Below, piece by piece: positions 1-48,438 of a DNA stretch of 50,253 nucleotides. Position 1 is the stretch's first letter, and the number at the start of each line of letters is the position of its first letter. The translations under genes were made by a program, and so were the position numbers. Source of the stretch: a virus; IMG/VR virus record IMGVR_UViG_3300025000_000149, positions 1 through 50,253 of that record. One strand, given 5' to 3'. Under the pieces are notes generated by a model. The model had not been told where the DNA came from. It worked only from the letters and a program-made list of their open reading frames with translations, and did no database searches.

Positions 1-201
1 TTACCCCCCTCAAACATTCATTACATGACAGTAAATCCCTAAACCAAGTGGGCGGATATTTGTGGAATAAAAACAATCAGTTAGTCTCCCCAATTTTTTA
101 AAAAATATTTTAAAGAGGTGTCGGAATACTCCTCCCATTTTTATGCTAGAATAGTTCTAATCTTATATATGTCTAATATAATAACAAACAAGGAGTAACA
201 A
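1..201 (+). promoter_or_regulatory. Upstream region of the packaging operon
   Basis: No gene is seen here. A TATAAT hexamer lies at 177-182, about 20 bases before the first start codon, but the -35 position (154-159, GTTCTA) does not match sigma70. A short inverted repeat, TAGAA/TTCTA, lies around 147-159 and could be an operator or just part of AT-rich DNA. GGAG at about 191-194 is the ribosome site of the first gene. Confidence 0.3.
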
Positions 202-954
202 ATGAGTAAAGAAGAAGAACTATTGTGGGATAAAAATGAAGGTTATTTAGAACTAAAAGAGGAGTTGACGACCGAAGAGAAGAAGAAGAAACATGATAAT
301 AGGAGTAGAGATAAAAAAGGAGAGCGTGAGTCTAGTTACGCCAAGTTGAAGAAGATTTACAAAGAAGAAAAGGCTTTGATGACAGACGCTAAGAGGATAG
401 AGAAGTTTAATATTAGGACTAACTTTGCGGGGATGGCCTCCTCTGGTGGTCGGCCCAAGAAGTATACACCTATACGCCTAAAGAATAAAATCATTGACTA
501 CTTTGCTATGATTAGTGCTACGCACCGCCCTCCAACTGTCTCGGGTTTAATGGTACACTTAAAGATGAATAGAGATCAATTTTATCATTATTATACTTAT
601 CCTGAGTTTAAGGATATTATGGAACAAACTAAGAATATGATGGAGAATTGGAATGAGGAGGCACTTGTCTTAGCTAAACACAACACGGCGGGGATTATGT
701 TTGCCCTCAAGAATAGATTCGGATGGAAGGACTTACAATCTGTAGAGACTACGGTACAAATACAAGAAGATCAATTGATTCATAGGATTGCTGCACTCGC
801 TCCTGACCTTGTAGGATTTATTCAAGGAGCAACACAATACGAAGCAATAGAAGTAGAGAACGATAAGACAGCTATGCTGGCGGGTGAAGCCGAAGGCGAA
901 ACGTTTGACTTTATAGCCTATAAAAAGGAGAGACAAAATGGAACCGCTAAGTAA
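202..954 (+). CDS. Terminase small subunit, P22 gp3-like
   Basis: This 250-residue protein is probably the DNA-recognition subunit of the packaging motor. The first 75 residues are very charged and Lys/Glu-rich. Residues about 90-180 contain a helix-turn-helix-like segment (SGLMVHLKMNRDQFYHYY) followed by a stretch ending in ALKNRFGWKD, the style seen in P22 gp3-type small terminases. GGAG lies about 8 bases before the ATG. It opens the late operon and is followed by the large terminase three genes on, which supports the call. Family assignment is from motif memory, not a search. Confidence 0.72.
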   Translation: MSKEEELLWDKNEGYLELKEELTTEEKKKKHDNRSRDKKGERESSYAKLKKIYKEEKALMTDAKRIEKFNIRTNFAGMASSGGRPKKYTPIRLKNKIIDYFAMISATHRPPTVSGLMVHLKMNRDQFYHYYTYPEFKDIMEQTKNMMENWNEEALVLAKHNTAGIMFALKNRFGWKDLQSVETTVQIQEDQLIHRIAALAPDLVGFIQGATQYEAIEVENDKTAMLAGEAEGETFDFIAYKKERQNGTAK

Positions 955-1099
955 GGATGAGAAGATTCTTTTACTTGAGGAACAGATTAGATTGATGAAG
1001 GAGATTGAAAAACTAAGGGCAGAGGTAGCAAAGAAGCCTTGGCCTAATAGGGTTGCTGGCACTGATATAAGTGTGTTTTCTCCGGGTTGTTTTAGCTAA
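938..1099 (+). CDS. 53-residue coiled-coil protein, unknown function
   Basis: A short gene starting inside the end of the small terminase gene (17-base overlap) with an AAAGGAGAG ribosome site before ATG 938. The protein begins MEPLSKDEKILLLEEQ and continues as a Leu/Glu/Lys-rich helix to about residue 32, which looks like a coiled coil, then a Pro-containing tail. Position between the two terminase subunits suggests a late or packaging-associated role, but no function is recognised. The ribosome site and overlap argue that it is real. Confidence 0.6.
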   Translation: MEPLSKDEKILLLEEQIRLMKEIEKLRAEVAKKPWPNRVAGTDISVFSPGCFS

Positions 1100-1115
1100 C
1101 TATAAAGGGGTTATT

Positions 1116-1436
1116 ATGAGTTTATTTGGACGAGTAGATTTCACAAAAAATAAAGAGGCTGTGATGAAATTCATAAGTAAATACATAGGCCAATGTAATT
1201 TCACCGGGCATATACCTGATGAGGTATATAAGCAATTTGTATCGTGGGGTACATTTAAACTCGGGTGGTATCTTAGTATAAGATTCCCCATTCCTTACAT
1301 TAAAAGACTTATAGATGGTGAAGAGTATGCTTGTTATAAGTTACTTATCCTTTATAGGGTAACTTCTGCTAGCGAGGAAACTCCTATTGGAAATATTTGT
1401 ATTAGTGGTTTAGATCTACCTATTGAGGTGTTATAA
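1116..1436 (+). CDS. 106-residue protein, unknown
   Basis: The start at 1116 (MSLFGRVDFTKNKE) is preferred over upstream starts because AAGGGG precedes it. The sequence has mixed charge, aromatic clusters around residues 50-75 (FVSWGTFKLGWYLSIRF) and no clear membrane span or catalytic motif. It sits inside the terminase operon and its stop overlaps the next short start as TAATG. Not recognised. Confidence 0.6.
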   Translation: MSLFGRVDFTKNKEAVMKFISKYIGQCNFTGHIPDEVYKQFVSWGTFKLGWYLSIRFPIPYIKRLIDGEEYACYKLLILYRVTSASEETPIGNICISGLDLPIEVL

Positions 1437-1504
1437 TGAGCATACTAGATATATATAAGCAATTGGTTACTATAATTGCGGGGAGGCTAGAATGTCTATT
1501 CTAG
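1436..1504 (+). CDS. 22-codon ORF, possible leader peptide of the large terminase
   Basis: It begins as TAATG on the stop of the previous gene and ends 12 bases inside the large terminase gene, so translation could be coupled through it. It encodes MSILDIYKQLVTIIAG and a short tail. Its first five residues, MSILD, are identical to those of the large terminase starting at 1492, although the codons differ at synonymous sites. It may be a leader peptide or a relic of a duplicated start. No independent support. Confidence 0.3.
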   Translation: MSILDIYKQLVTIIAGRLECLF

Positions 1505-2991
1505 ACACCTTGACCGCATCTCTTGTTGAGAAGTATACTGAACACCTTAGTGAGAGTAAGAAGCGAGAACTCTTTAAGGCTATAGAAGACCTCTCAACTC
1601 TTAAGAAACACAGGATGTTCTACGAGACTTTCCCCGAGAAAGGTAAATTAAGTAGGCACGCTTATGCAAAGCATTGGGAGTTTATAAAGGCGGGGCAAAG
1701 CCACCGAGAACGTCTGTTCATGGCAGGTAACAGGATTGGTAAGACGATACTTGGAGCCTATGAGGTTGTTGCACATGCTACGGGTCAGTACCCACAGCAT
1801 TGGGAAGGTAGGAGATTTAATCGTAGTGTTAAGATTTGGATTGGTGGTGATACATCCATATCGGTACGTGATATTATCCAAGAGAAGCTTTTGGGTAAGG
1901 TTGGGGAGTTTGGTACGGGGATGCTCCCAAAGGATTCTATTGTCTCTACGAAGACTAAACGCAATATTCCTGATGCTATTGAGACGATACAGATCAAGCA
2001 TATCAGTGGTGGGACTAGTACGATTGTCTTCAAGACCTATGAGCAAGGAAGAGAGCTTTGGCAAGGTACTGAGATAGATGTTGTTTGGTTGGACGAAGAG
2101 CCACCTATGGAAGTGTACGCAGAGGCACTTATTAGGACCATGACGACCAATGGAATACTTCTCCTTACCTTTACCCCTCTAAATGGTATGTCGGACGTTG
2201 TAACGAGTTTTATTGATGCTCAAAGTAATACTGATCCAAGTCTTACGACTTCTCAGCGTGATGAAGAGAGTAGTAAGTACATGATTATGGCATCTTGGGA
2301 TGATGCCCCTCACCTTACCCCCGAAGCTAAGAAAGAGATGCTTAAGACTATACCTCCTAATCAGAGGAAGGCACGTAGTGAGGGTGTACCCGTAATAGGT
2401 GCTGGTCTTATCTATCCTATTGATGAGGATGTATGTTTCGTTAAGGATTTTGAGATACCAAAGCATTGGCCTAAATTCTACGGGATGGACGTTGGTTGGA
2501 ATGTTACGGGTGTAGTGTTTTGTGCCTTGAATAGAGAAGATGATTGTGTTTATATTTATAGTGAGCACTATGGGCAACAGAGTGAACCTGTGATTCATGC
2601 TGATGCAATCAAGCGTCGGGGCGGATGGATGAAGGGAGTTGTTGACCCCGCCGCCCGTGGCCGTTCTCAGGCCGACGGTAAGGCTTTATTTGATATATAC
2701 AAGGATTTAGGTTTAAAGATAGTTCCGGCTAAGAATGCAGTAGAGGCAGGGATATATGATGTGTGGTCTAGGTTTACAAGTGGTAGACTTAAAATCTTTA
2801 ATAGTTGTGTTAACCTAAAGCGAGAGTTGAGTATGTATCATAGGGATAATGAGGGTAGGATTGTTAAGAAGCATGACCACCTTCTTGACTGTACGAGGTA
2901 CGCTATAGTTAGTGGTATTGATGTTGCTTCGGTCAGTATGACCTTATTGCCTCAGAAACCTAAAACTATATCAACCCTAGCGTGGTGCTAA
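1492..2991 (+). CDS. Terminase large subunit (packaging ATPase-nuclease)
   Basis: This 499-residue protein is the motor that pumps and cuts phage DNA. The ATPase domain shows Walker A GNRIGKT at residues 79-85, Walker B VVWLDEE at about 198-203 and the coupling motif TFTPLNG at 226-232. The C-terminal RNase H-like nuclease is visible as YGMDVGW (D333), VVDPAA (D385) and HDHLLD (D462/D466). Length and domain order are normal for P22- and T7-group large terminases. GGGGAGG before ATG 1492 supports the start. A transcription terminator for the opposite strand follows directly. Confidence 0.93.
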   Translation: MSILDTLTASLVEKYTEHLSESKKRELFKAIEDLSTLKKHRMFYETFPEKGKLSRHAYAKHWEFIKAGQSHRERLFMAGNRIGKTILGAYEVVAHATGQYPQHWEGRRFNRSVKIWIGGDTSISVRDIIQEKLLGKVGEFGTGMLPKDSIVSTKTKRNIPDAIETIQIKHISGGTSTIVFKTYEQGRELWQGTEIDVVWLDEEPPMEVYAEALIRTMTTNGILLLTFTPLNGMSDVVTSFIDAQSNTDPSLTTSQRDEESSKYMIMASWDDAPHLTPEAKKEMLKTIPPNQRKARSEGVPVIGAGLIYPIDEDVCFVKDFEIPKHWPKFYGMDVGWNVTGVVFCALNREDDCVYIYSEHYGQQSEPVIHADAIKRRGGWMKGVVDPAARGRSQADGKALFDIYKDLGLKIVPAKNAVEAGIYDVWSRFTSGRLKIFNSCVNLKRELSMYHRDNEGRIVKKHDHLLDCTRYAIVSGIDVASVSMTLLPQKPKTISTLAWC

Positions 2992-3021
2992 GGTTTAATA
3001 AGACTACTAGTTATTAAAGGA

Positions 3022-3056
3022 TAAAAAAAAATAGGGGGAAGCGTATGCTATCCCCC
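3022..3056 (-). terminator. Rho-independent terminator (minus strand)
   Basis: GGGGGA (3034-3039) pairs with TCCCCC (3051-3056), extended by AGC/GCT. On the minus strand the stem is followed by a run of nine T residues broken only at its edge, a classic terminator. It lies just past the end of the minus-strand gene 3066-3341. On the plus strand the hairpin lacks a T tract, though it may still help end or stabilise the terminase message. Confidence 0.8.
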
Positions 3057-3065
3057 TTCTACCCC

Positions 3066-3341
3066 TTAATCTACCCAAGGTAGAGATGTATTATTTTTTG
3101 ATTCTATAAAGTATTTACCAACTATAACACCATATGATTTTGTATTTACTCTTTCTATATTTTTCTTATCTCTTTGTTTGTTTACTTCTTTAAGGCAGGA
3201 CTTACAAAGCTGTTGATTGATAGGTGGTTGTTCTGATTGTTTAAATCCTTTAAGTCTTCTCTCTAATCTACACAACGAGTTGTTTTGTTTCTTATTTAGG
3301 AGGTGGTAAATCTTACCACCACATTCTCTTATTAAAAACAT
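3066..3341 (-). CDS. Minus-strand 91-residue protein with CxxC pair, unknown
   Basis: This is the only minus-strand gene in the late half. It has its own ribosome site (AAAGGAAAT before ATG) and its own terminator at 3022-3056, so it looks like an independently expressed insert (moron-like). The protein is basic, with Cys residues at about 7, 24, 46 and 49 (QLCKSCLKEV), which could bind zinc. It resembles the zinc-finger part of small homing-nuclease proteins, but no HNH core is present. Function unknown. Confidence 0.6.
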   Translation of the reverse strand: MFLIRECGGKIYHLLNKKQNNSLCRLERRLKGFKQSEQPPINQQLCKSCLKEVNKQRDKKNIERVNTKSYGVIVGKYFIESKNNTSLPWVD

Positions 3342-3907
3342 TATTTCCTTTCGCTTCTTCGTTTGTTCTACGAAGCTTCTTATCCCTCTTGTATCGCCGC
3401 CTTAATTAGTCTCGGCGGCTCTTTATAAAATCTTACTATAAAACATATCTTCTTAGGAAATAAAAACAGTAACAAAGATAATACCCGGAAATGGAATAAA
3501 TCCCCCCTACCCCCAAGTCTTAAAAATATATTAAGAGGGGTAGTAATATTAAGTTAGTCTGCCACACAGACTGACTACATCTAACAGGAAGATGTTTCGG
3601 AAGTTCCCCACGGCACGGTTATGGTTTCTAGTAAATACTCCCTTTTACTCCCAACACTCGCTGGTTTCATCAGACACTCAACTAGATTTGCTCGTGGACT
3701 CTGTGTCTCTTTTTTGTTCACATCTTCTTGAGGTATCTAAAGAAAAAGCAAACCCGCAAAGAAACAAATCCCCCAAAAAAGGAAAGCGGAAAAGAAAAAG
3801 AAAAACATTTACTACTCAATAATTATATCATACCTTTTTTAAAAAGGGAACAATTATTTTTATATTATGGTATTATTTATTTATTATTAAAATTAATCGA
3901 GGTGAAA
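3342..3907. other. Long intergenic region with several hairpins
   Basis: No convincing gene lies here. Three inverted repeats are visible: GCCGCC/GGCGGC (3396-3419) followed by TCTTT, a possible plus-strand terminator; CTACCCC/GGGGTAG with an inner CTTAA/TTAAG (3507-3543); and AGTCTG/CAGACT (3556-3572). A purine-rich stretch (about 3735-3815) and an AT-rich stretch (3820-3900) come before the portal gene. The region probably holds termination and re-initiation signals for the portal-capsid operon, but no sigma70 promoter with both boxes stands out. Confidence 0.5.
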
Positions 3908-5968
3908 ATGATTTCTTCTCCAAGTGATGCCGCTTCACTAGCGCAACAGATAGAACTTAAACAATATGCCCAAGATACACGAGAGAAGCGCACTATGGAC
4001 TCCCTCTCAAGTCATATTGCTAAGATTTGGGAAAAGGTACGGGATGAGAATAAAACCGTAAGACAACAGATGGTGGAAGAGTTAGATATTTGTAAGGGTA
4101 AATATCCTAATGATAAGCTAGCCGCAATTAAACAATTTGGGGGCAGTACTTCCTACTTTAGACTCTTAGAGAATAAGTGTCGTGCCGCCTCTTCTTGGGT
4201 TGCAGATATTTATTGGTCGAATGGTAAACCTCCTTATGGTATTAACCCTACACCCATTCCTGAACTACCTGAAGATTCTCAAGCTAAGATACAACAGCTT
4301 CTAATTGGTGTTCAGCAGCAGATGATGCAAGATGCCCAAATGCGTCAACAGGCAGGGGAGCAAGTAGACCCTCAGATGTATCAAGCACAACTAGAAGAAA
4401 TTAAGGAGCAAGTACAGCAAAAAGAGATTACACGTATTAAGGAAGAGGCTCAAGAGAAGGCAGATAATATGCTCCGTCTCATTGAAGACCAGAATGAGCA
4501 AGGAGGTTTTAAGAAAGCCTTCCATGACTTCCTCTACTATCTTGTACGAGTTAAAGCTGGTATCCTAAAAGGACCAATTGTACGTAAGAAGAAGCAACAG
4601 GTTTGGTCTAAGTCACCAGAGGGTGAGTACGCCCTTGAGTATAAAGACGTGCTTGTACCTGAAGTATATTGTGTATCTCCCTTTAACTTTTATCCTAGTA
4701 TTGGTATGACCTCTCCTGATGATGGGGATATTATAGAGATTCATGAATTAACTAAAACTGCTATTGCAGATTTGCTAGGTGTTCCGGGCTACAATGATAT
4801 AAAGATACGAGCAGTATTAGATGAGGTAAATAAAGGTTCCCTTAAAGATTGGATTAATATTGATGATGCTGATACTGTTAAGCGCACAGAGAAAAGTGCT
4901 GAAGCAGCACAAGCTCAAGTAACACCAGATAAGATTAAGGCAATGGAATTTTGGGGTTCTGTACCCGGCTCCTTCTTAATTGATTGGGGTATTGAGGGGG
5001 AAATTGACCCTGAGATGCAGTATGAAATTGATGCTTGGAAGATAGGTACACACGTTATTAAGGCTGTAATTAACCCTGATAAGCTTGGACGCAAGCCATA
5101 TAGTGTAACCTCTTGGGCTAAGAACCCTGCTTGGATTTGGGGGGATGGTCTTGTAGACTTTGGTAAAGATGTTGAAGAGGCTATGTTGGCACTCGTTAGA
5201 GCAGGTATCAATAACGTAGCTATTGCCTCCGGCCCACAGGTAGAGCGTAATACTGATAGATGTAATGATCGTACACCAATGTTCCCTTGGAAGATTTGGG
5301 ATGCTACAAGTGCTCAGATGAAAGAAGCACCAGCAATGAATTTCTATCAACCACAGATGCACATTGCGGAAATACAAGGTGGTTATAATTTCTTTGGGAG
5401 GATTCTTGATGAACTCACAGTACCAGCATTTGCTCATGGTGATTCAATGGTTGGGGGTGCAGGAAATACCGCTTCTGGCCTCAATATGCTTATCCAAAAT
5501 GCTTCTAGGTCTATAAAGGCAGTTATTAGGAATATTGATAATGATATTATTGTACCCTATATTCAGCGTTGTTATGATTTTAATATGTTATATTCTGATG
5601 ACCTCTCAATAAAAGGGGATGCTAAGATTACTGCTGAAGGGGTAAGTTACCTCACGACTAAGGAACAACAAGCTACTCGTAAGAATGAACTTCTTATGGC
5701 CCTTTCTAATCCTATGTTTGCTCAACTAATGGGACAACCTAAACTTCAATACGTATTGGATGAAGTTGTAAAGGCACATGATATAGATTTTCCTAGTGAT
5801 GTGGTAAAGGAAACTAAAAGACAGCAAGCACAAGCAATGATACAACCACCCCAAGGTGCTGACCCTGCACAACAAGCTGCGGGAAACCCTGCTTCTGGTG
5901 GCTCACCCGCTGCACCACAGACTATAGGTCAAGATGGTGGTAATATGGGGGGTAATATAGGTGGTTAA
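3908..5968 (+). CDS. Portal protein
   Basis: This 686-residue protein should form the dodecameric channel at the capsid vertex. ATG 3908 is chosen because GAGGTG precedes it; upstream codons in frame are low-complexity. It begins MISSPSDAASLAQQ and shows long helical Gln/Glu-rich segments (residues about 115-185) like the P22-type portal stem and wing, and a C-terminal Gln/Pro/Gly-rich tail. Its position after terminase and before scaffold and coat is the standard portal position. Length fits P22-like portals (about 700 residues). Confidence 0.85.
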   Translation: MISSPSDAASLAQQIELKQYAQDTREKRTMDSLSSHIAKIWEKVRDENKTVRQQMVEELDICKGKYPNDKLAAIKQFGGSTSYFRLLENKCRAASSWVADIYWSNGKPPYGINPTPIPELPEDSQAKIQQLLIGVQQQMMQDAQMRQQAGEQVDPQMYQAQLEEIKEQVQQKEITRIKEEAQEKADNMLRLIEDQNEQGGFKKAFHDFLYYLVRVKAGILKGPIVRKKKQQVWSKSPEGEYALEYKDVLVPEVYCVSPFNFYPSIGMTSPDDGDIIEIHELTKTAIADLLGVPGYNDIKIRAVLDEVNKGSLKDWINIDDADTVKRTEKSAEAAQAQVTPDKIKAMEFWGSVPGSFLIDWGIEGEIDPEMQYEIDAWKIGTHVIKAVINPDKLGRKPYSVTSWAKNPAWIWGDGLVDFGKDVEEAMLALVRAGINNVAIASGPQVERNTDRCNDRTPMFPWKIWDATSAQMKEAPAMNFYQPQMHIAEIQGGYNFFGRILDELTVPAFAHGDSMVGGAGNTASGLNMLIQNASRSIKAVIRNIDNDIIVPYIQRCYDFNMLYSDDLSIKGDAKITAEGVSYLTTKEQQATRKNELLMALSNPMFAQLMGQPKLQYVLDEVVKAHDIDFPSDVVKETKRQQAQAMIQPPQGADPAQQAAGNPASGGSPAAPQTIGQDGGNMGGNIGG

Positions 5969-6101
5969 CTTTCATTGCCCTTGTTGTAAGAAAGAATTTC
6001 CTGATAGAGTTATGTATTGTAATCACTTAATACAATGTTTAAAACTAAAAGAGGTGAAAATCAATGGACAAACAAGTATTGCTTCAGATAAGCACAATTA
6101 A
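5961..6101 (+). CDS. 46-residue C2HC zinc-finger microprotein
   Basis: A GTG-initiated ORF that overlaps the end of the portal gene by 8 bases and the start of the next gene by 38. Residues 5-26 read HCPCCKKEFPDRVMYCNHL and onward to C26. This fits C-x2-C-x3-F-x5-aromatic-x2-H-x3-C, with C6, C9, F13, Y19, H22 and C26 exactly placed for a classical zinc finger. A G-rich stretch upstream may act as the ribosome site. The finger match is the main support; the unusual start and double overlap lower confidence. Confidence 0.5.
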   Translation: MVNFHCPCCKKEFPDRVMYCNHLIQCLKLKEVKINGQTSIASDKHN

Positions 6102-25100: not shown

Positions 25101-26063
25101 TTTAACCATGAGGCTGCTGAGAAAGCAGTAGAATTTGTTTATAATACAAACTTCATGATGAATAGTTTTAATATGCCTTTAAGTATTAAGAAATTGGGAC
25201 CAGCAGGACGTACTATTATGACACTCTCTACTTATCCTATACATTATCTTAACTCTGTATTTAGATTATTAGGTGGTACTGAGAATGGTGGTAAAACTGT
25301 TCTTACTATGGTTGGTGCAGCAATGATGTTAGGTGGTGTAAATGCAGTACCACTTAAAGATTTCTTTAGTAAAATATTCTCTATGGTATTTAAAAAAGAC
25401 CTTAACATCTCCATACGAGAATCTGTTAAAGCAATGGGTGGTAATGAGTGGTTGGCTAACACCACTATGAGGGGTTTACCCCCTACATTTGGTGTAGATG
25501 TTGCTAACAACATATCATTTAATACACCTTATATTGGTGGTTGGTTAGGTGATAAGAATGCAATGGAATCCGCAACTGGCGCGGCTGGTGGTATGGCTTC
25601 ACGAGCCTCTAATGTAGTTAAGTATATTGGTGAGGGCCAATACTCTAAAGCTATTTGGGAAAACCTTATGCCAGAGGTAGTTGCCTCTCGCGCAAGGGTC
25701 ATTAATCAATATAATAATGGTATGAAAACTAGCTCTGGTTCTAAACAAATGTATAAAGGACAACCTCTTGAACTTAGTTTTGGTGATGCACTTACTACGT
25801 TTATTACTACAGCTAAATCAGCAAATATGGGTACTATATCTGAGAAGCGTAACTCTATGCGTAAGCTTGAGACTCAATATAAGTCTATTGCTGCAAATGC
25901 AAGAAGGTCTTATTTAGAAGACAATGATCCATCGAAAATCAACAAGTTTAATCAGCTTATCATTAAGAATAAATTGATTGGTTTCATAAAACCAATAGGC
26001 AAAGTAAAACAACCAAAAGAAAATAGCGGAAGAATTGCTTTTGAAAACCAATTAAGCAACTAA
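16131..26063 (+). CDS. Giant virion protein with zinc-peptidase motif
   Basis: A single 3310-residue ORF, about a fifth of the window. Residues about 45-240 hold several Gly/Ala-rich hydrophobic stretches that could span a membrane. A charged linker follows to about 820. Residues 881-885 are HEAIH, with a later Glu in EELQEEAIARAF, the pattern of HExxH metallopeptidases. The last 900 residues include further hydrophobic segments near 3015-3085. It belongs by layout to large polyvalent or ejection proteins of phages: probably packaged, injected, and multi-functional. I see no RNA polymerase motifs like those of N4 virion polymerase. It begins as TAATG on the previous stop. Confidence 0.7.
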   Translation: MPTWEEILAQLESGTNPNTTVMQKVPLTKRPPAPIDFPAYVPTPPEPEKVGALRSIAGNVVSGALQGTVGTAGRLIEGGLRHGLGATDLAETYRQGNEGFEEWVHDTFTKDNLQTKDINGVGSALRYIGENVGNFAGQMLPSIFLMGGVGGIASRAALKSAIAGGMEKEAAIAYAQKMGERAVIGAATVSEGAQEGGIIYGMQGKNIEEGKQEDYNHLQGIAGTSAAAALGAGSTIYNMGRLGLTKALGASGVKEGVEELGKKISAKTLLTQPFVGALSEGVQESAQTLAENYGATNKVLADGETLTPYNALRTGTAALTGGMLGGDVLQPTLRNEMFESGAAGAAGGFGLGAIGAAGKGTIQALATPPKVISTDATSIGDNKTGTTIVEETKAGLGSNQEVQGILGLPTEGGLVGGLLGSEENILNPELIKQGNPTSAVAKAAKFKSILETQLKNIPADADFQKNFDKILNNAITTANPATLQQAYTTGQDTTPIEYAYFVKDALANNPVYANAYNNNSKIQGEKRKQEALQKKVAKEAPQTRSNASEGIQTSLPIDNYINSTDGHVSAYNDDIALKREQAQQEEIANMSSGSQIGMFGDHTDNTETKESNIDFPTRDAAKEAITSTITNLKSLVSKRKGITAEEKVVARQQIKDLTNKIAKQYTSWTQPELNFNPVEELKIVQEHKETVQGLHDLVTNDVITPDEATLLQHTLTDQAVEHPIVPPKGKLEKKPPTVKVKQKRDIIKKVEPVIAPEVKVESKVTPTAITPKKESKLDKAARERKEAKEAEAVVVEEAPKKSKTKVTEKGQESTHPDFTEDEAQALVKTLLGNKAELEIVDADYIIATDPNGNIVRISAQAIGKFIQVASGSATLYENVRHEAIHVARTLGIINDKEWKVLQLKANKWIKDFGIEDRYKGFTKEELQEEAIARAFEINPKDNTIFGKLKNFFEKIVNTLKGLGFNSSKSVFSKFESGAYASRSVNKTLDLGRIMASLKKDSTSEEIKAAFEEKGMIPPAILESKKEREDAVKMFNRLKEKPLARIFKRVIQVAEAVNSAGVIRGTHYNIPINNLYLTDHSSLSFADIVYAEDTEGLLESILDDAEDDLTSSIIYKRYKSFKKKEGLEREKLTDAEWRNRVDWNLIKKAIEEDDYISFHSDLSRMHNATEGGDWDLDCSIFSFYHTGYTDPLYVPELFLPPAGKDKDLTDEYIDNAERIIKTGYRARLGLDADHEGLLNTPLKNLIKDSNLIKEIINISKPENVGTIIQLKDFKSPTDRNIASMTMLNWLEKIGAITILDIAATTTDKVDKVSGEIRQRIESFAKDSTNIAQFMFDRGSHFEQGTGTEDEEGNVLSHTSDLTQDFFFRDITTDITNGDTYIKFNPEFKNYFITLAEMDKGSDLFIDEIIGGKRYKIVTPLGQELTDIIDTRTKNDIVRALQKSGATLDNIVDIGIKNVEREYQLDASQPLDKSLMDIIDSSKVRLSELRSGAKKKLYKALGKSRKDIKAFLKNDIEAVRNINGYEMPIKYSVALYLAAKGNIEDYNKSRSTTILNASGAKEFTELGRRLLFKALGNVLLHQKYFDVPMPGNYEALLNKSMRYFDHNGTVVSKVTRANLFSTPSTTELDNIRWETFTPAITQNILMALNVIDEFGIPIADQENQIKALEDPIRTDLVSTYGSVQSILDALQEDNNSPEESAKIMRAYSAMIKRLKASNVIAKAGVTEAQSPIRQLVSHDPELIKEYKKLKDGTTEAKFFSDKAAELVNKYSVELFKLLEAPIEDAKEAEVSVIDKKTKETNIIKTIKLSEESEARIRELVELLDLTYESKNVSEERNIQISVGSIFDAWSKNFSTPQRDAIVPHIKDLIATVVLENSTLKGITNIVVSERRVKRVSKDSKESETLYFDLKAADDVKNISVEEYTKEQKPIVYTRKRELSGPAAEGDYGVNIFEHIPTEEEKIAARKIALEKHSVSTTRVVAKPVPKSSPHDGRIVRPSENDKRVSPLGGFLNLRDRFESKESKSVVKLANEMGLDTNIIEEIKRSDDKATKQNLNDIFNNSPFGLFYNAIISAKEQIPTGQFNIGLVYSRGEYNQWIKFFNALEKKATSIIEDRLISSNSAISVDKLNVLKADLEWKIKRYFAKFTWDIEQKERTPIKITQDTSKVELSADQVYKSKGTENERVRIVPATSEKPIKGFVRLEVLDYNNKVVNKRTVSESKFERDYEIDTENTIKDFKKVAFDAKTNREIISLFNNYGEEMRENLVKPLLTFLKNNDATFYTPKQLTKFILAGNVLSRSLLEDSGLVYTSETEADFKLDATITRILSNLVDLGLAIQGVPNKGEGIYGRKSIKISERLVNFLNNNKLGSTTKASIISEQVRTQNAVLSKFDQASIMKGLKQTFQGVSEIKLFKFIKDAFITPWYDSEKHPVLRKFMFTAAERGDKRATYLSEFTEPLEDVVADLKTYGEEHPDQQEAINKLVIKGDIENQEYTTLKEAQAVVPNITQTSLDKYIALRKALTGFSDTIFKTGARVYMVWANMRYGEHGSIKFSEKLHELVGTRDIKEPAEIDIIVSKLLEMIPVEKRAEEQTEMRKSVRAYIDWLDKKRTLIHKVKGWMPRVRFVKDYVGSVRDTSKKNNPLVAFKYFKTLREAQEYIKGFDGVGYDKNAVATEVEMKNLFTSMDQIKGFENLEHFLKNGMSEDWDNPQFGVSTLTEGHSGGQHLIRRKDHLVEGYETENYLQNYITAANRMANSFSQLEYGLAQRENLHQARLLEKTVPIVRDTLPKFVKHLKDDLSPATSFEGTATQVRNATVFYFMGFRMLPAIINTTQNFVIGVPNLAKELTSMNGKSYVKNLFLATKMMHSAMIDSVRDLITNVLHKDKSKMLGLILKALDKVAPEGKGRINIDSMSDVDNRAIEEFNKYNIATQNLSHTSSIMDSYKEGMAVARHGKAGEAVNAIMNEAMVYMRLTEQVNRTGAFLAAYRLFSKGENTFNHEAAEKAVEFVYNTNFMMNSFNMPLSIKKLGPAGRTIMTLSTYPIHYLNSVFRLLGGTENGGKTVLTMVGAAMMLGGVNAVPLKDFFSKIFSMVFKKDLNISIRESVKAMGGNEWLANTTMRGLPPTFGVDVANNISFNTPYIGGWLGDKNAMESATGAAGGMASRASNVVKYIGEGQYSKAIWENLMPEVVASRARVINQYNNGMKTSSGSKQMYKGQPLELSFGDALTTFITTAKSANMGTISEKRNSMRKLETQYKSIAANARRSYLEDNDPSKINKFNQLIIKNKLIGFIKPIGKVKQPKENSGRIAFENQLSN

Positions 26064-28315: not shown

Positions 28316-28370
28316 TTGCCATAGCTAGGCTTATAACCGAAAAGGAGAACCTTACTCCCTGCTGTGGCAA
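28316..28370 (+). other. Structured RNA or hairpin between fibre and lysis genes
   Basis: TTGCCATAGC (28316-28325) can pair with GCTGTGGCAA (28361-28370) over ten positions with one G-U pair, closing an inner GGAG/CTCC hairpin. There is no T tract. It could be an RNA processing site or a stabilising structure separating virion and lysis messages. Role unknown. Confidence 0.4.
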
Positions 28371-28401
28371 TAACTATAAGGACTGTCCAAAGGAGATAGA
28401 A

Positions 28402-37353: not shown

Positions 37354-40300
37354 TTAGCCCATGTCTGAATACCGCGCCCTCTCCGGGTTTATTAATACTG
37401 CATGCTTACCATGCTTACCACTAATCTTATTCTTGGCAAGACGAATATATCTTATATTTTCCTCACCATCAGCACTATTACAACCTATACCAATAATTAA
37501 ATCCATTTCTCCCGGTTTACCTGTATTATGGGTTACAATGTAATTTTCTAGCATATATAAACCATCACCATCTAAGGTAAAACCAGCATACTCACCCATA
37601 CCTACACTTTCAATTTCCATTGGAGACGTTGTTACCTGCGTCTTTGCACAAAAAGTTGTTTGCTTTCTAGTAATCTTTGTAGGTATTTTACTTATGTCAC
37701 CTGATATATATACGTAATAGTATGGTACCTCTTTAATATATTTTATTGCATAGCTAGCATACAAACCAAGCGACCTGCATAACTCAATTAAATCTAAGCA
37801 TATATTAATATACTTAGTTGCAACTTCAAAGTACTGATGTGTTTTAGTACTTAAAAGACAACCATCTGTATCTATAAGACCCGCTAAAAATTTCTGTCTG
37901 TCCCAAATTGAGGTTGTAAGTACCCATTTAGGTATATGTTTATTATTAATAAGATTAAGTTTCTGCAATTCCTTTAAAACTGGATTATTACCATTTACTT
38001 TACCACAAGAAATGTGCAGAGTTTTGTATGTAGGGGAATAATCTTCTGTAATCTTCATACCAAATTTAGAAGCTACTTTCTGTACATATTCCTCTATTTC
38101 TTTATCTGCTGTTGTGATAGAAGAACTTCTTGAGGAACCATCACCTAGCCACATACCTATAAAATATGGGTCTAGTATAGATAACCAATCATTATTATAC
38201 TGAATACTATCTGTATAATATCCTTTATGTCTATATCTAACTGTGGGAGATAATGCTAACCAATCATGCAGAGATTTATTAATCACTTGTTTATTTTTTA
38301 TAAAGGTAGAATAGTTACCAGACATTTTAGTAGATAATATATGATTATCATTACATATAAAACTATCTCCTGTTTTAACCATAGATACTTTCCACATCTT
38401 AGATATACCTTTATCTGTAGAGATTACATTTCTAGGGGTACTATCTACACCCATTACTTGATCACCTATTTTAATATTTTCTATACACTTTAAAGAACCA
38501 TCATACATACGAACCTTAGTACCAATAGCAAGACATTTTGAGAAATCCATCCAATCCATAGTAAGCCATTTCTTACCCTCTGCTTCGCCACTAGCTTGAC
38601 CAACAGTAATAATAGGTATATCTAATTCTTTTGCGAGTTCCCTAAACTTTACGTAGAGAACTTTAAGCCGTTCTGTTGTAGAATAATCAGAAGCACCTTT
38701 AAATGTTACTTTATCTCCTTGATCTACTACTAGAAACTTAGGTTTATAGTCACGGCATATTTGTTGTATCTGCTCAAATGTAATTGTTGCGGAGTCTACA
38801 ATCTTAATCTTTGTTCCCCACTTGGGGAGGAATACCGATAAGGCAGAATCTATCTTAGCAAGTATTTCTTCCTTTGTGGCCTTAAGAGCCGCTTGCATTG
38901 TCCTAAACTTTACTTTCTTTCCTGCCTCTTCATTATTAATCCAGATACCATATTCACCCTCTTCTAGTTGTTCTGCAAAGAAGGTAAGTTCAGAGGCTAG
39001 GAAGGTTGTTTTTCCCGTATTTCCCACCACAGCAGTAGCCAACCCCCTACGTACAAGAAGCATACCAGTACTTACAGAAAAACAATAAACCATACCAGAA
39101 TAAGATGATTTCTCCTTAATAATACATTGTCCATCTACAGGTTGATAATTAGTCCTAATACTTAAGGAATATACATCATTATAACTTTCTTTCCTATTAT
39201 CTTGCTTAATACTAATAAAACAATTATAACCAGCAAGAGAAGCAACGGCACTAACTATATCTGCTACAGCACCATTTGTTGTATCATATTTATAGCGTTT
39301 ACTTGTTCTTCGTGTAGCATCCCAATAGGATAACTCCTCTATAAAATCTTGGGCGTATGCAGTAGATACCTCTTCTAAATCTAACCAGTTAAAATCTTTA
39401 CTAAGGGGTTTTTTAGTCTTTACATAAAAACCTATATTATCCCTATTACCATCTTTATAAGTTGTGTACTCATATTGTAATTCAGCAAGAATACCTTTAA
39501 GACGATCTATCTTACATTGTTTCTTAAAACTAAAGGTGTAACCATACTCCTTATAATTTCGTGTATGACCATCTGCTTGATAAGCAATTTGTAAAGCATC
39601 AAAGGCTGTAAAAACTTTACTACCTTTACCATAACCTGCTATGTGATGCTTAACTCCTTGAAAGTATTTAATATCTCTAGCAGCTTTCTTTTGAAGACCA
39701 TTACCATCAAATTCATAAACCATTTGATGCCCACCTGATACACAAAGATTAACTCTACCTAAAGTATCATGAATATTATACATTTCAATTTCTTCGTGAG
39801 CCTCTATATGGGAAGGTTTCTCAAAATGAATACCACGATTTTTATCTACACAAGCAATTTTATCTTTATAAGTTATTTGATTTACATATCGCCAACCATT
39901 AGGGGTTAAGACTTCTGTATCAGGGGTAAAACATTCTGGTCGAGCAAAGATGTGTGTAAGGGTACTACCACCAAGAGGACCAACATCATCGTTAAGGCAT
40001 TGTAGCCGCCACTTAAAACCTTTACCCTCGCTTTCCTCAGTGAGAAGTTCTCGCATATCAATATCTAAGAATGGACTCTCTTTATCCTCTCTACTAATAA
40101 CTTCTTGGTAGGTTAAAAGTTTTGCCTCTATTTCACCCAACTTACCATAACTACGTGTTAAGAGAGCATCTTGAGTAATATTAGATATAGCACGATAAGT
40201 ATCATTTTCTATAAGTTTATGAACGTAATTCTTAATCGTATCAGAAGAGAGACACATACTATAAATAGAATCAATATAAATATCAAAGGCCGCAGTACCT

Positions 40301-40521
40301 CTTAATTGTGGGTAATTAGTAGAGAAGTATAGTTTTAAATCATCCTCGCTAATATAAGTGTGGTTTGGTGATTCTTGATAATAAGCATCTATAGCCTCAT
40401 ACAATGTTTTTAAATCTCTTGATGTAATATATTTTTGAACTATACTAAAGTACTTATCATAGTAACCACGGTTCTTAACTAAGAGCCGTAGGATTTCCAT
40501 TTCATTTGTAGACTCTTCCAT
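37354..40521 (-). CDS. Replicative helicase (DnaB/gp4-type) with two inteins
   Basis: The 1055-residue precursor contains 413 residues of helicase (1-196, 502-662, 1000-1055) and two inteins. The spliced protein shows a P-loop ARPETGKTT, Walker B KFLVVDQGD (near 596-603), the VGQASG glutamine sensor and an arginine-finger region near RYIRLAKNK, all as in RecA-fold ring helicases. The N-terminal 180 residues are helical and lack a primase zinc motif, so priming must come from another gene. Intein 1 interrupts the P-loop, so no ATPase activity is possible before splicing. It starts 2 bases after gene 40524-40700. Confidence 0.85.
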   Translation of the reverse strand: MEESTNEMEILRLLVKNRGYYDKYFSIVQKYITSRDLKTLYEAIDAYYQESPNHTYISEDDLKLYFSTNYPQLRGTAAFDIYIDSIYSMCLSSDTIKNYVHKLIENDTYRAISNITQDALLTRSYGKLGEIEAKLLTYQEVISREDKESPFLDIDMRELLTEESEGKGFKWRLQCLNDDVGPLGGSTLTHIFARPECFTPDTEVLTPNGWRYVNQITYKDKIACVDKNRGIHFEKPSHIEAHEEIEMYNIHDTLGRVNLCVSGGHQMVYEFDGNGLQKKAARDIKYFQGVKHHIAGYGKGSKVFTAFDALQIAYQADGHTRNYKEYGYTFSFKKQCKIDRLKGILAELQYEYTTYKDGNRDNIGFYVKTKKPLSKDFNWLDLEEVSTAYAQDFIEELSYWDATRRTSKRYKYDTTNGAVADIVSAVASLAGYNCFISIKQDNRKESYNDVYSLSIRTNYQPVDGQCIIKEKSSYSGMVYCFSVSTGMLLVRRGLATAVVGNTGKTTFLASELTFFAEQLEEGEYGIWINNEEAGKKVKFRTMQAALKATKEEILAKIDSALSVFLPKWGTKIKIVDSATITFEQIQQICRDYKPKFLVVDQGDKVTFKGASDYSTTERLKVLYVKFRELAKELDIPIITVGQASGEAEGKKWLTMDWMDFSKCLAIGTKVRMYDGSLKCIENIKIGDQVMGVDSTPRNVISTDKGISKMWKVSMVKTGDSFICNDNHILSTKMSGNYSTFIKNKQVINKSLHDWLALSPTVRYRHKGYYTDSIQYNNDWLSILDPYFIGMWLGDGSSRSSSITTADKEIEEYVQKVASKFGMKITEDYSPTYKTLHISCGKVNGNNPVLKELQKLNLINNKHIPKWVLTTSIWDRQKFLAGLIDTDGCLLSTKTHQYFEVATKYINICLDLIELCRSLGLYASYAIKYIKEVPYYYVYISGDISKIPTKITRKQTTFCAKTQVTTSPMEIESVGMGEYAGFTLDGDGLYMLENYIVTHNTGKPGEMDLIIGIGCNSADGEENIRYIRLAKNKISGKHGKHAVLINPERARYSDMG
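37525..38535 (-). mobile_element. Intein 2 in the helicase, LAGLIDADG endonuclease type
   Basis: Residues 663-999 (337 residues). It starts at C663 (CLAIGTKVRMYDG), has the splicing block with H727 (ICNDNHIL), two LAGLIDADG-like motifs (FIGMWLGDGSS and FLAGLIDTDGC) and ends VTHN with the usual penultimate His and final Asn, followed by Thr as the +1 nucleophile. All residues for splicing and homing look intact. Confidence 0.88.
39019..39933 (-). mobile_element. Intein 1 in the helicase P-loop, degenerate endonuclease
   Basis: Residues 197-501 (305 residues). It starts at C197 (CFTPDTEVLTPNGW), with a block B-like histidine (CVSGGHQM, H265), and ends AVVGN followed by Thr. The penultimate residue is Gly instead of His, which is rarer but known in functional inteins. 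The centre has one recognisable LAGLIDADG-like motif (IAYQADGH) and a degenerate second one (LSYWDATRR), so homing activity may be lost. Confidence 0.82.
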
Positions 40522-42975: not shown

Positions 42976-43053
42976 TGGTGGCTCCGATGAGATTTGAACT
43001 CACACTTGTAGGGATTTTAAGTCTCTTACCTCTACCAATTGGGTTACGGAGCT
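42976..43053 (-). tRNA. tRNA-like gene, anticodon UAA (Leu)
   Basis: The minus strand folds as a cloverleaf: an acceptor stem GCTCCG/CGGAGC with encoded CCA, a D arm with GG in the loop, an anticodon stem AGAGA/TCCCT with loop CTTAAAA (anticodon UAA), and a T arm GTGAG/CTCAT with TTCAAAT. Oddities are an A-C mismatch at position 1-72, one mismatch in the anticodon stem, and a short variable loop although Leu tRNAs normally have a long arm. UUA codons are frequent in this phage, so it may boost them. It may alternatively be a decayed tRNA. Confidence 0.7.
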
Positions 43054-44959: not shown

Positions 44960-45670
44960 TTATATAAGCTCCTTTGTATATGCTAACCTACCCTCCTTAC
45001 CAAACATTTTCTTCAAATCTTTATAATTATAACCAACCTCTACCTCACCTGTCATTTTAACAAACCAGTTATAATCCCAATACTTACTTATATAATCAGG
45101 TAATTTATTAAAGGTAGTCCATATTATCTCAGCAACTCTATCAGTATCTTTTGTACAAGAATCAACTACTAACGAATCATGTACTTGACATATAATCTTT
45201 GCATCTAAACCCTCATCTATAATCTGTTTACGTATTATCATAATAGCAAAGGGAACTATATCTCCTGTAGCAGTTCCTTGGACGATATAATTACATACCG
45301 CAGGACGACTATACTTTAATACTCCATGAAAATCAGGCTCTTTATGAAAGACCCACCATCGACCTGTAAAGGAACTATAATTGCCTTTAGTACAAACTTC
45401 TGTGTAGAGTTTATTTTGCCACGCTTCTAATCCTTTATATTTTGTATAAAATTTTTCCCTAATACTTTCCCACTCTCTCAAAGGTTTAGAAGGCATATTA
45501 GAATCCATAAAGAAGGCATAAGCAGACCCCCCATAAATCATTCTAAATGAAAAAACTTTTGCTAATTGCCTAGTTGCAGCATCTCCATTACCAAATATAT
45601 ATTCTGCATTAAATTGATGGGCATCTATACCATTTGCTATTTCTTCTATCATTACCTTATCATTAGACAA
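44960..45670 (-). CDS. DNA polymerase A, C-terminal part (split gene)
   Basis: The open frame from TTG 45670 covers 236 residues of the polymerase domain. Motif B is RQLAKVFSFRMIYGG (R34, K38, Y46, G47) and motif C is QVHDSLVVD (H164, D165), with VVGT-type elements YIVQGTATGD. Motif A with the first catalytic Asp is not inside this frame: the codons for LSALEWCC lie just upstream, after an in-frame TGA. Alone it would lack one of two metal-binding Asp residues. See the segment 45671-45727 and the HNH gene. Confidence 0.8.
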   Translation of the reverse strand: MSNDKVMIEEIANGIDAHQFNAEYIFGNGDAATRQLAKVFSFRMIYGGSAYAFFMDSNMPSKPLREWESIREKFYTKYKGLEAWQNKLYTEVCTKGNYSSFTGRWWVFHKEPDFHGVLKYSRPAVCNYIVQGTATGDIVPFAIMIIRKQIIDEGLDAKIICQVHDSLVVDSCTKDTDRVAEIIWTTFNKLPDYISKYWDYNWFVKMTGEVEVGYNYKDLKKMFGKEGRLAYTKELI

Positions 45671-45727
45671 TTGTGCGGCACAGCACCACTCAAGAGCACT
45701 AAGTCAAAGGTCTCCATTAATTAACAT
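45671..45727 (-). pseudogene. 5' end of the polymerase C-terminal part, interrupted by TGA
   Basis: AAAGGAGG lies 9 bases before ATG 45727, an ideal start. The frame reads MLINGDL, then TGA (45706-45704), then LSALEWCCAAQ and continues into the frame at 45670. GDLSALEW would be a perfect polymerase motif A if TGACTT (45706-45701) were absent. The sequence GACCTTTGACTT looks like an imperfect duplication of GACCTT. So either this copy is inactivated, or the stop is bypassed, or the sequence has an error here. Confidence 0.6.
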
Positions 45728-46346
45728 GGAGACCAACCTCCTTTCTGAATATCTTATTTCGATACTCAGTTGAACAGGAATGACTACAGAATTTTTGTTC
45801 TTGTTTAATATAAGACTCAAATTTAATAATACAATTTAAGCAATTCTTAATTATTTTATATACTTTATCTTTTCTTATACGTTTACTATTTTCTGATTTA
45901 GTAATCCATCTGCAATTTTTAGGAGTATAATCTTTATTTGAATCAATTCTATCTAAAGAGAAGTCTAAAGATGGTCTACAAGACATATCTAATAGAAATT
46001 GTTCAAATGTACCCCACTCCTTGCAAACTTTAATACCTCTACCACCATAATGTTTATAATCCTTATTTTTAGGACATTCACATCTTTGATGCATTGCTCT
46101 CCAAGACTGGTATGTTGGTGTTGTTGTGCCTCCCCTTGCGTGACCATGTGTTTTTATTTTTCTTGCTTTGAGACGCTCTCTGTTTAAGCATCCACAGGAT
46201 TGTGTTTGTCCATTACGTAGAGCACTTGTTGTTGGTGTTACAATAAAATTACCACAAATACATTTACATACCCATTGTTGTTTTCTATTTTTATTAACAA
46301 GATGTTTGCGTATAACTAAAAGTTTACCAAAAGTTTTACCTATCAC
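45717..46346 (-). CDS. HNH homing endonuclease splitting the polymerase
   Basis: This 209-residue protein starts with GTG behind AAGGAG. It has two zinc-like clusters at the N-terminus (CKCICGN, SCGCLN), then TYQSWRAMHQRC, YGGRGIKVCKEW, SLDRIDSNKDY and NCRW, the core of a widespread phage HNH family, and a C-terminal cluster with FCSHSC. It lies exactly between the two halves of the polymerase gene. The gaps on either side (9 and about 25 bases) are too small for a group I intron core, so it seems a free-standing insertion. Confidence 0.85.
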   Translation of the reverse strand: MIGKTFGKLLVIRKHLVNKNRKQQWVCKCICGNFIVTPTTSALRNGQTQSCGCLNRERLKARKIKTHGHARGGTTTPTYQSWRAMHQRCECPKNKDYKHYGGRGIKVCKEWGTFEQFLLDMSCRPSLDFSLDRIDSNKDYTPKNCRWITKSENSKRIRKDKVYKIIKNCLNCIIKFESYIKQEQKFCSHSCSTEYRNKIFRKEVGLHVN

Positions 46347-46355
46347 TAATTCTCC

Positions 46356-47384
46356 TTATACATATCTAGTAATAAAAGATCGTTTTACTACTACCGTCTC
46401 AGGGGTAGAGCCTCGTGGTAAGGTTTGAAAGAAACTACTTAACCTCCCCGTTACTGTAAGAGCTTGGTTAAATGGGGGATGTACTACATTAGACCCTTTA
46501 GGAATAAGCTTCTTCATACCTGTTAGGTAAGTACTTAATACCTTAGATACATCAGCCTGCTCTCGTACAATAGCGAGAAACTCTTTTGTGGTTTTAGACC
46601 CCCCTTTTAATTGGGCCATTACTTCTTTATTAGTCTTATAATAACCTTCCTTCTTAGTCTTATCAGACTCCTTGGGTTTAAAACCTAACCCCTGTACTAC
46701 ACACTCTTTTACACAAGCACGTTCGTAAGTACGCGGGGGTTTAGTTTTATATTCTCTTGTAACCCATTCGGTAGAATCGTACTTTACTATGCCGCCGTAA
46801 AGGATTGCCGACAGGTGATCATTTGAAGTGAGACTATAAGGTATGTCGCGTAGTTCTGGAACGTGGTCAGTGATGTAATAAGAAAGTTTTTCATTTATTC
46901 CCTCCAAGCGTTTAGTAAATAATTCTTGTTGTTTATCAAGATGAGGTATATCTACAACCATTCCATTTGACTCAATCTCCATAAGGCACTCTACAAAACT
47001 ATTCTGTAGGTGCATAAGCTTCTTTAGAGACGGTATGATGGATTCTTTTTGTTGCTCCTTATACAGGTCTAGGGTAATCTCTACGTCCATGTAGCAGTAC
47101 TCTAAGAGCGTCTCAAGGGGTATATCACAAGTATCTACTCCCTTGTCCCAATACTCCGTCTTAACTACATCTAGTTTAGGCTTAAGCCCTCGTCTAATAC
47201 AAGAGTCTTCTAGGGAATAACCTAGACGATTATTCTGTCCATTGATAAGATATTCCATTACAAAGGTACAGTAGGGATTATTAATCTTAATACCAAGATA
47301 TTGTAACCACAACATTTCAAACTTCATATTATGAGCAATTACCTTATCTGCCCTACTAAGAATATCTCTAATCTCTTGAACCAT
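46356..47384 (-). CDS. DNA polymerase A, N-terminal part (split gene)
   Basis: From ATG 47384 this frame has 342 residues: the 3'-5' exonuclease motifs II (VIAHNMKFE) and III (EYCYMDVEITLD) and the start of the polymerase domain (PPFNQALTVTGRLSS, the TGRLSS motif) up to KRSFITRYV, where it stops. The next residues of a normal enzyme would lead straight to motif A, which is found beyond the HNH gene. Exonuclease motif I lies upstream of this ATG (see 47385-47557), so the true start is earlier. Confidence 0.82.
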   Translation of the reverse strand: MVQEIRDILSRADKVIAHNMKFEMLWLQYLGIKINNPYCTFVMEYLINGQNNRLGYSLEDSCIRRGLKPKLDVVKTEYWDKGVDTCDIPLETLLEYCYMDVEITLDLYKEQQKESIIPSLKKLMHLQNSFVECLMEIESNGMVVDIPHLDKQQELFTKRLEGINEKLSYYITDHVPELRDIPYSLTSNDHLSAILYGGIVKYDSTEWVTREYKTKPPRTYERACVKECVVQGLGFKPKESDKTKKEGYYKTNKEVMAQLKGGSKTTKEFLAIVREQADVSKVLSTYLTGMKKLIPKGSNVVHPPFNQALTVTGRLSSFFQTLPRGSTPETVVVKRSFITRYV

Positions 47385-47558: not shown

Positions 47559-47717
47559 TTAACAAGATAAATCGCAAGGTCTATAACCACATGTCACACA
47601 TTCAAGAGGTGAATAGCTACAATAATAATAAGCATAACCATCTACTGTAGGCTCACTACAATCTTCACAAGTACCATTAATTTCATCTTCATTATAACCT
47701 GATGGTTCACAACACAT
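47559..47717 (-). CDS. 52-residue cysteine-rich microprotein
   Basis: AAAGGAGG precedes the ATG at an ideal distance. The protein MCCEPSGYNEDEINGTCEDC... has nine cysteines, with CEDC, ECVTC and a terminal PCDLSC, so it probably binds metal. It ends one base before the presumed polymerase start. Its 5' end adjoins the end of the cassette array. Confidence 0.6.
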   Translation of the reverse strand: MCCEPSGYNEDEINGTCEDCSEPTVDGYAYYYCSYSPLECVTCGYRPCDLSC

Positions 47718-47732
47718 AATTACCTCCTTTAA

Positions 47733-47782
47733 TTATAACTTACGCTACAACGGACAAGCCGTTGAGCTTGTCATTATATTTC
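47733..47782 (-). other. attC-like site A (end of cassette array)
   Basis: On the minus strand it starts with GAAATATAAT (47782-47773), holds the hairpin GACAAGC/GCTTGTC (47772-47753), and ends with GTTGTAG (47751-47745) or GTTATAA (47739-47733) as possible core sites. Its first ten bases are 9/10 complementary to the start of its own cassette (GTTATATTTC at 48056-48047), the hallmark of integron cassettes. It is short (38-50 bp) and the most degenerate of the three sites. Confidence 0.5.
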
Positions 47783-48034
47783 TAACCCGAATTTTTCCCT
47801 GATTGTCTTTGCAGCATCAGGCCCGAACTCATGTGACGATGCAATTTGATAGCATTCTCTGATTGCCTTTGCTGCCCCAGTTGTCTGTGTGCAATCCAAC
47901 AAAAAATCAATCAATTCACCGAATGATGTAGTATCCATTGCAGTGCTTCCACATTTTATACTGAAAAACGGTTGTTCTAACATTTCGCACTGTCGCCAAT
48001 GTCGGATTGCTGCTATTCGTTCTGATCTAGTCAT
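47774..48034 (-). CDS. Cassette ORF 2, 86 residues, unknown
   Basis: Strong GGAGGG ribosome site before ATG. The protein MTRSERIAAIRHWRQC... is helical with a C-terminal DAAKTIREKFGLEI. Its stop lies inside the inverse core of attC-like site A, as is usual for cassette genes. Codon use is visibly richer in G and C than the flanking phage genes. No function recognised. Confidence 0.65.
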   Translation of the reverse strand: MTRSERIAAIRHWRQCEMLEQPFFSIKCGSTAMDTTSFGELIDFLLDCTQTTGAAKAIRECYQIASSHEFGPDAAKTIREKFGLEI

Positions 48035-48046
48035 AAACCCTCCTGC

Positions 48047-48114
48047 GAAATATAACCACGGAATCCAGCCGATTCCGCTTCGTTACACGGCTAATTCCTT
48101 AGCCGTTATTTTGC
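48047..48114 (-). other. attC-like site B between cassettes
   Basis: On the minus strand the site runs from GCAAAATAAC (48114-48105) to GTTATATTTC (48056-48047). Inside, GGAAT-AGCCG (48098-48088) pairs with CGGCT-ATTCC (48071-48060), with T facing two extra G bases. This is the attC plan: paired outer boxes, unpaired spacer, paired inner boxes with extrahelical bases, and a terminal loop. R' is GTTATAT, close to GTTRRRY. Confidence 0.7.
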
Positions 48115-48327
48115 TTTCAACAGTTTCGAGAAAAACTTTTGTCGGCTCTGATGATGCTTACGTTCCACGGAAAACGCCTGCGCTCGCTCCATCCATTCAG
48201 TAGGGGTAAATGATGTTGCCTCCGGATCACGGGACAGCCCCACATTTGTCTGCTCGCAATCGCGATAGTGTTTCGCCCACCATTTATGATGATCCCGCAA
48301 AATTGCCATTTCTTTCTGAGTCAACAT
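48106..48327 (-). CDS. Cassette ORF 1, 73 residues, unknown
   Basis: GGAGGG precedes the ATG. The protein MLTQKEMAILRDHHKWW... is basic and aromatic, with a C-terminal Lys-rich end (KFFSKLLKAK). Its TAA stop falls in the inverse core of site B (AAATAAC). The G+C-richer codon use sets it apart from neighbours. Not recognised; a DNA- or RNA-binding role is only a guess. Confidence 0.65.
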   Translation of the reverse strand: MLTQKEMAILRDHHKWWAKHYRDCEQTNVGLSRDPEATSFTPTEWMERAQAFSVERKHHQSRQKFFSKLLKAK

Positions 48328-48346
48328 TGATCCCTCCGATCACCGC

Positions 48347-48408
48347 GCAAAATAACAAAACGTTGGACGGGGACGAACCCCGCCCGTCAACTCAAGCCGT
48401 TATATTTC
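48347..48408 (-). other. attC-like site C at the upstream edge of the array
   Basis: On the minus strand it runs from GAAATATAAC (48408-48399) to GTTATTTTGC (48356-48347). The inner stem, read on the plus strand, is GTTG-ACGGG paired with CCCGT-CAAC, with one extrahelical G on one arm. The 3' core GTTATTTTGC is a perfect complement of the inverse core of the next cassette (GCAAAATAAC at site B). Length 56-62 bp fits short attC sites. Confidence 0.7.
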
Positions 48409-48438
48409 TACTGCGACATTATTCCCATAAAACCTCCT

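Follow-up and report, generated by a model that had tools for sequence, protein, structure and literature searches.

How did two small genes bounded by integron-type recombination sites come to lie inside the replication operon of a tailed phage, and which way do those sites face? The window analysed here is a stretch of 50,253 nucleotides, an incomplete IMG/VR virus record (IMGVR_UViG_3300025000_000149) that holds a tailed-phage gene set: terminase, portal, major head protein, a 3310-aa virion protein, DNA polymerase A, NAMPT and a NinI-like phosphatase. Window positions 1-5988, the first 6 kb being compared, recur with 100% identity in L168 and L169, two contigs assembled from other metagenome samples, which reach about 2 kb beyond the window's start into further early genes. 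The record is therefore a fragment, and the same phage has been assembled more than once. The cassette block sits inside the replication operon, which is transcribed on the - strand, and has a G+C content of 43% and 50% against 37% in the flanks, as the first-pass annotation of this DNA had remarked. Neither a DNA polymerase scan nor the TerL relatives yielded a relative covering this locus, and L168 and L169 match only the opposite end, so that no gain or loss at the site can be observed.

Several other features of the window deserve mention in their own right. An HNH endonuclease-like ORF of 209 aa (45717-46346) splits the DNA polymerase gene (46356-47384 / 44960-45670) and resembles a homing endonuclease or intron insertion. 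In the helicase region, the 1055-aa ORF at 37354-40521 resembles a replicative helicase with two intein-like interruptions. Rfam matches place an int-alpA RNA directly after a tail-fibre-like gene (28318-28382, + strand; 40.4 bits, above the gathering score) and a tRNA gene in the early-gene region (42979-43053, - strand; 47.2 bits).

The block and its neighbours, in window coordinates, are the following.

47559-47717, - strand: flanking phage gene of 52 aa (phrog_13157), downstream of the block in the operon and before the DNA polymerase.
47733-47779, + strand: degenerate attC site2, TTATAAC ttacg CT[A]CAACG gacaagc CGTTGAG cttgtc ATTATAT (trained model 1.4; covariance model R1 15.2 bits with filters off).
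47774-48105, + strand: cassette A, 332 bp in attC orientation, from the first base past the site2 R' cleavage point to the R' G of site1.
47774-48034, - strand: ORF2, 86 aa, antisense in cassette A, with the RBS GCAGGAGG; its stop, TAA, is the cassette's first three bases.
48050-48111, + strand: attC site1, ATATAAC cacgg AAT[C]CAGC cgattccgcttcgttacacg GCTAATT ccttagcc GTTATTT (trained model 17.7; R1 12.0 bits with filters off).
48106-48399, + strand: cassette B, 294 bp in attC orientation.
48106-48327, - strand: ORF1, 73 aa, antisense in cassette B, with the RBS GGAGG; its stop, TAA, is again the cassette's first three bases.
48350-48405, + strand: attC site0, AAATAAC aaaac GTT[G]GACG gggacgaaccccgcc CGTCAAC tcaagcc GTTATAT (trained model 20.2; R1 34.4 bits).
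48400-48438, no strand assigned: block-end segment TTATATTTCTA, either the beginning of a third, truncated cassette or an old phage target.
48439-48711, - strand: flanking phage gene of 90 aa (weak match to phrog_20678), upstream of the block in the operon.

Are these sites attC? To score them we used a model of R'', spacer, L'' plus one extra base, loop, L', spacer and R', with joint pair probabilities, trained on 80 bacterial integron loci that were fetched with an IntI alignment and oriented so that each array leads away from intI. The published consensus served as its seed, only the intI-proximal strand was used in training, and it converged on 223 sites in 40 loci. It superseded an earlier, loosely seeded model that had drifted onto both strands; a segment that had scored high in that first model (25454-25546) reaches only 7.8 in the better one and lies within the 3310-aa gene. 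Site0 and site1 rank first and second across both strands of the window, ahead of a third-best score of 11.1. Other viral DNA, 882,657 bases in all, yielded one match scoring at least 17, and this match (L005, 19.9) falls within a NAMPT gene. The independent covariance model R1, built from 21 short bacterial attC sites, returned site0 as its sole match in the window (E 2.7e-5) and as its top match in 1.11 Mb, a set that includes known phage integrons and CALINs; with filters off it also returned site2 and site1, both on the + strand.

The check proposed with the first-pass annotation, a covariance-model search for attC, thus found the sites, and the three palindromes with paired boxes and extrahelical bases are as it described them, with one of them degenerate: all have R''/R' cores, L boxes and one extrahelical base, except that the R' G of site2 is replaced by A (R' = ATTATAT). 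Folding of the bottom strand in silico places site0 (moderate) and site2 (good, but lacking the R' G) within the bacterial range, while the predicted fold of site1 is not canonical, with L and R pairing probabilities of about 0 against a bacterial 5th percentile of about 0.02. That the sites are chance look-alikes, phage hairpins serving as terminators or in processing, is hardly credible: all three are intergenic and folded, but two of them take the top ranks in a window set against a single match of at least 17 in 0.88 Mb, one is the best covariance match of 1.11 Mb, and the cassette cores match at 9/9 positions. Judged by these models, the sites are genuine attC-type sites.

Site0 and site1 give at least two attC sites on the same strand within 4 kb, as an integron cassette array or a CALIN (a cluster of attC sites lacking an integrase) should have, as called by our own models and not by IntegronFinder's. 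A PF00589 search gave 0 matches in this incomplete record; the window carries no tyrosine recombinase, in agreement with the earlier reading, and without intI the block is not a complete integron.

The ends of the cassettes were compared as well. The start of cassette A, TTATATTTC, is complementary to its own R'', GAAATATAA, at 9/9 positions, and that of cassette B, TTATTTTGC, to its own R'', GCAAAATAA, also at 9/9; random G|TT starts paired with AA|C ends in the window gave 9/9 in 52 of 400,000 trials. For bacterial cassettes the mean is 5.8 of 6 core bases matched to their own R'' and 4.2 to the preceding site. Such own-end matching makes the junctions hybrid cores, as expected of recombined cassettes. 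The first-pass annotation had regarded this complementarity as its strongest sign, and on the + strand reading it holds in full; the single mismatch that it had counted is the R' G of site2, outside the cassette. Together with the two site models, the cassette ends support its central claim that the virus carries integron-type cassettes.

Which way does the array run? The trained model reads all three sites on the + strand (site0 +20.2/-20.3, site1 +17.7/-22.4, site2 +1.4/-15.6 on the + and - strands), and R1 has no match above 6 bits on the - strand. Both small ORFs are present, each with an RBS as listed, and both lie on the - strand (48327-48106 and 48034-47774), in sense with the replication operon and antisense to attC. 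Cassette ORFs are usually co-directional with attC, although this is not strictly required; here neither is. We conclude from the models that the array is opposite in direction to its genes.

The first-pass annotation had instead placed the sites on the - strand, as ordinary cassettes in which each ORF is followed by its own attC. Stops that fall within a core box, and starts of ORFs just behind a core, do form the mirror image of normal cassettes, and the end complementarity is compatible with this layout; since it compares two ends with each other, it holds in either direction and cannot show direction. However, the - strand scores are far lower at all three sites, the covariance model offers nothing above 6 bits there, and the trained model called direction correctly in bacterial arrays at 236:1. 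An array on the - strand is accordingly very improbable, and the claim that each ORF precedes its attC has to be given up. The ORF stops, which it had placed in the inverse core, do lie in a core box; that box is the R' of the preceding site, whose bases open the cassette and supply the stop codon of each ORF.

How unusual is this arrangement? Of 185 bacterial cassettes, 104 have their longest RBS-led ORF in the forward direction and 10 in the reverse, the other 71 having no such ORF, and none of the 185 has an RBS-led reverse ORF that fills the cassette and stops in the R' box. Compared with bacterial integron cassettes, class 1 or chromosomal, the window has the same R''-spacer-L''-loop-L'-spacer-R' order, extrahelical base and own-end matching, but its genes are antisense, their stops lie in the R' box, and no intI, nor any evident attI, is nearby.

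A DNA-pattern scan of IMG/VR for the site0 type, made without use of genes, found model-supported arrays in two contigs.

L251 (IMGVR_UViG_3300020045_007239), attC sites at 4802, 5057, 5267 and 5908, - strand; genes on the + strand.
L252 (IMGVR_UViG_3300036866_000010), attC sites at 961 (961-1008), 1161 and 1545, + strand; genes on the - strand.

Seven of the nine contigs in a wider pattern scan (L253-L259) held no model-supported attC. Across the window, L251 and L252, all 7 callable cassettes are reversed, compared with 10 reverse and 104 forward in bacteria (Fisher p 3e-7), and in 5 of the 7 the stop lies at the first cassette bases. Like the window, L251 and L252 have reversed genes, a similar leader ahead of the gene, and the spacer types AAAAC/TCAAGCC, CACG./..AGCC and TTACG/CTTG.C. 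Two of these types were absent from the scan pattern: TTACG/CTTG(T)C, found at window site2 and at L252 961, and CACG./..AGCC, found at window site1 and at L251 5908. The nearest relatives of the window's sites are in other viral contigs. Unlike the window, the two contigs carry other genes and have three to five sites per array, and L251 carries a phage integrase; own-end matches were not seen in the L251 cassettes. As a separate observation, the TerL-related viral contig L237 has, within 97-1016, an attC site (97-162, - strand), a reversed RBS-led ORF (186-449, + strand) and a broken intI with fragments to 1016. We read it as the fusion of an integron with a prophage or phage, the first cassette being reversed again.

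What do the cassettes encode? ORF1 and ORF2 have no Pfam, PHROG, phage, plasmid or viral-contig relative and none in 85,000 genomes, and similarity searches of phages and plasmids with the cassettes or the site module returned nothing. The predicted structure of ORF1 consists of two long helices (pLDDT 77.5), for which a fold search found no match. Apparent matches of ORF2 in L002 and L003 proved to be a 13-residue antisense coincidence within another gene. ORF2 and an L251 protein have in common only their last residues (I.KFGLEI) and 19 nt; these 19 nt (AAATTCGGGTTAGAAATAT, C-terminus KFGLEI) lie at the end of ORF2 (47774-47796) and at the end of an L251 gene (4270-4288) that has no attC behind it. 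From the context of a lytic-type early operon, our guess is that the products serve host takeover or counter-defence.

The end of the block may also hold a trace of earlier events. The segment at 48400-48438 has 73% of 26 nt in common with the start of cassette A. A 6-codon ORF (MGIMSQ; 48428-48408, - strand) with a strong RBS ahead of it ends adjoining site0, and would be what is left either of a third cassette or of a phage gene that the insertion interrupted.

Altogether, we read the block as a short CALIN within the replication operon of a tailed phage, and think it probable that its cassettes were put in by a host IntI acting in trans and that the reversed genes were kept by selection. 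The three + strand sites bound two cassettes, each with one small orphan gene on the - strand. IntI action on the folded bottom strand of attC is established for integrons (PMC11023631). In the phage, a host-encoded IntI would fold the bottom strand, which is the - strand of the window, and insert cassettes at a resident phage site that would point against phage transcription. Cassette genes would be expressed by read-through from the phage operon, each with its own RBS. Since such a site faces against transcription, only cassettes with a reversed gene would be expressed, and selection would retain those. With the reversal, the bottom strand of attC also coincides with the operon's coding strand.

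The first-pass annotation had suggested both capture from a bacterial integron and use through a host integrase. Of these, use through a host integrase is our best inference, while capture from a bacterial integron is possible. In a thin sample of 770 bacterial genomes (369 gammaproteobacterial, 395 from a second phylum, the one to which a Desulfobacteraceae genome belongs, and 6 others) the exact site0 type was absent, and none held a source integron with these site types.

Could the block be a non-mobile relic? It might have arrived by illegitimate or homologous recombination, its sites now being only spacers or RNA hairpins. Phage mosaicism has been proposed for other phage CALINs (PMC9892861), the window has no integrase, and the array may be a relic or decaying, given the poor fold of site1 and the change of the site2 R' G to A. 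However, the cores and extrahelical bases of site0 are well preserved, each cassette retains its own matching ends, and site types common to three viral contigs suggest repeated movement. We therefore regard a relic as unlikely. By the models, the cassette that at present seems most mobile is B, the one with site0.

A further idea, which we hold tentatively and at somewhat less than even chances, is that phages keep a cassette pool of their own. Its members would have the gene against attC, the stop in the cassette start and a conserved leader by attC, and would be expressed without Pc from an antisense site. Were this so, the attC bottom strand would be part of the coding (non-template) strand and so be exposed by transcription.

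A host integrase acting on a phage-borne CALIN, the reading we prefer, has precedents. CALINs were described in virulent phages in 2023 (TJE1, P12002L, PH101 and MW202573; Qi et al., PMC9892861). In that work IntI1 was active at 5/6 tested phage sites, and the attC sites of PH101 and P12002L recombined with IntI1 in E. coli (PMC9892861). The active phage sites score 20.9-26.3 (TJE1) and 20.3 (P12002L) in our trained model, the same order as the window sites. PH101 has four strong + strand sites (27-36) where the annotated genes are all on the - strand; its last cassette also holds one competing + strand ORF with an RBS. Sites are on the - strand and genes, including a methyltransferase, on the + strand in MW202573, where RBS-based calling is ambiguous; P12002L has a + strand site between - strand genes, and the genes of TJE1 run forward relative to attC. 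At the level of arrays, 6 are reversed and 1 is forward in phages, against 3 reversed, 30 forward and 3 ties in bacteria (p 1.4e-4), in a small sample. The 3 reversed bacterial arrays are each called from a single cassette. The direction of genes relative to attC is not discussed in the main text of PMC9892861 or in the other open-access papers searched.

Why does direction matter? Phage-borne attC clusters were already known, and the reversal bears on how a phage without an integron promoter could benefit from a cassette gene. Reversal in 6/7 of the phage arrays compared suggests that phage cassettes obey rules other than the bacterial ones, and the layout makes a testable claim about where the genes are expressed and which strand is recombined. 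It also raises the question of whether phages exchange small genes for host takeover or counter-defence by means of borrowed host integrases. What appears new here, as far as comparison of sequences can tell, is the corrected direction and the recurrence of reversed genes among phages, the phage CALIN itself being a known kind of element. Like the CALINs of Qi et al. (2023), the window has attC arrays and small unknown genes in a tailed phage that carries no intI; it differs from them in its site types and in its cargo.
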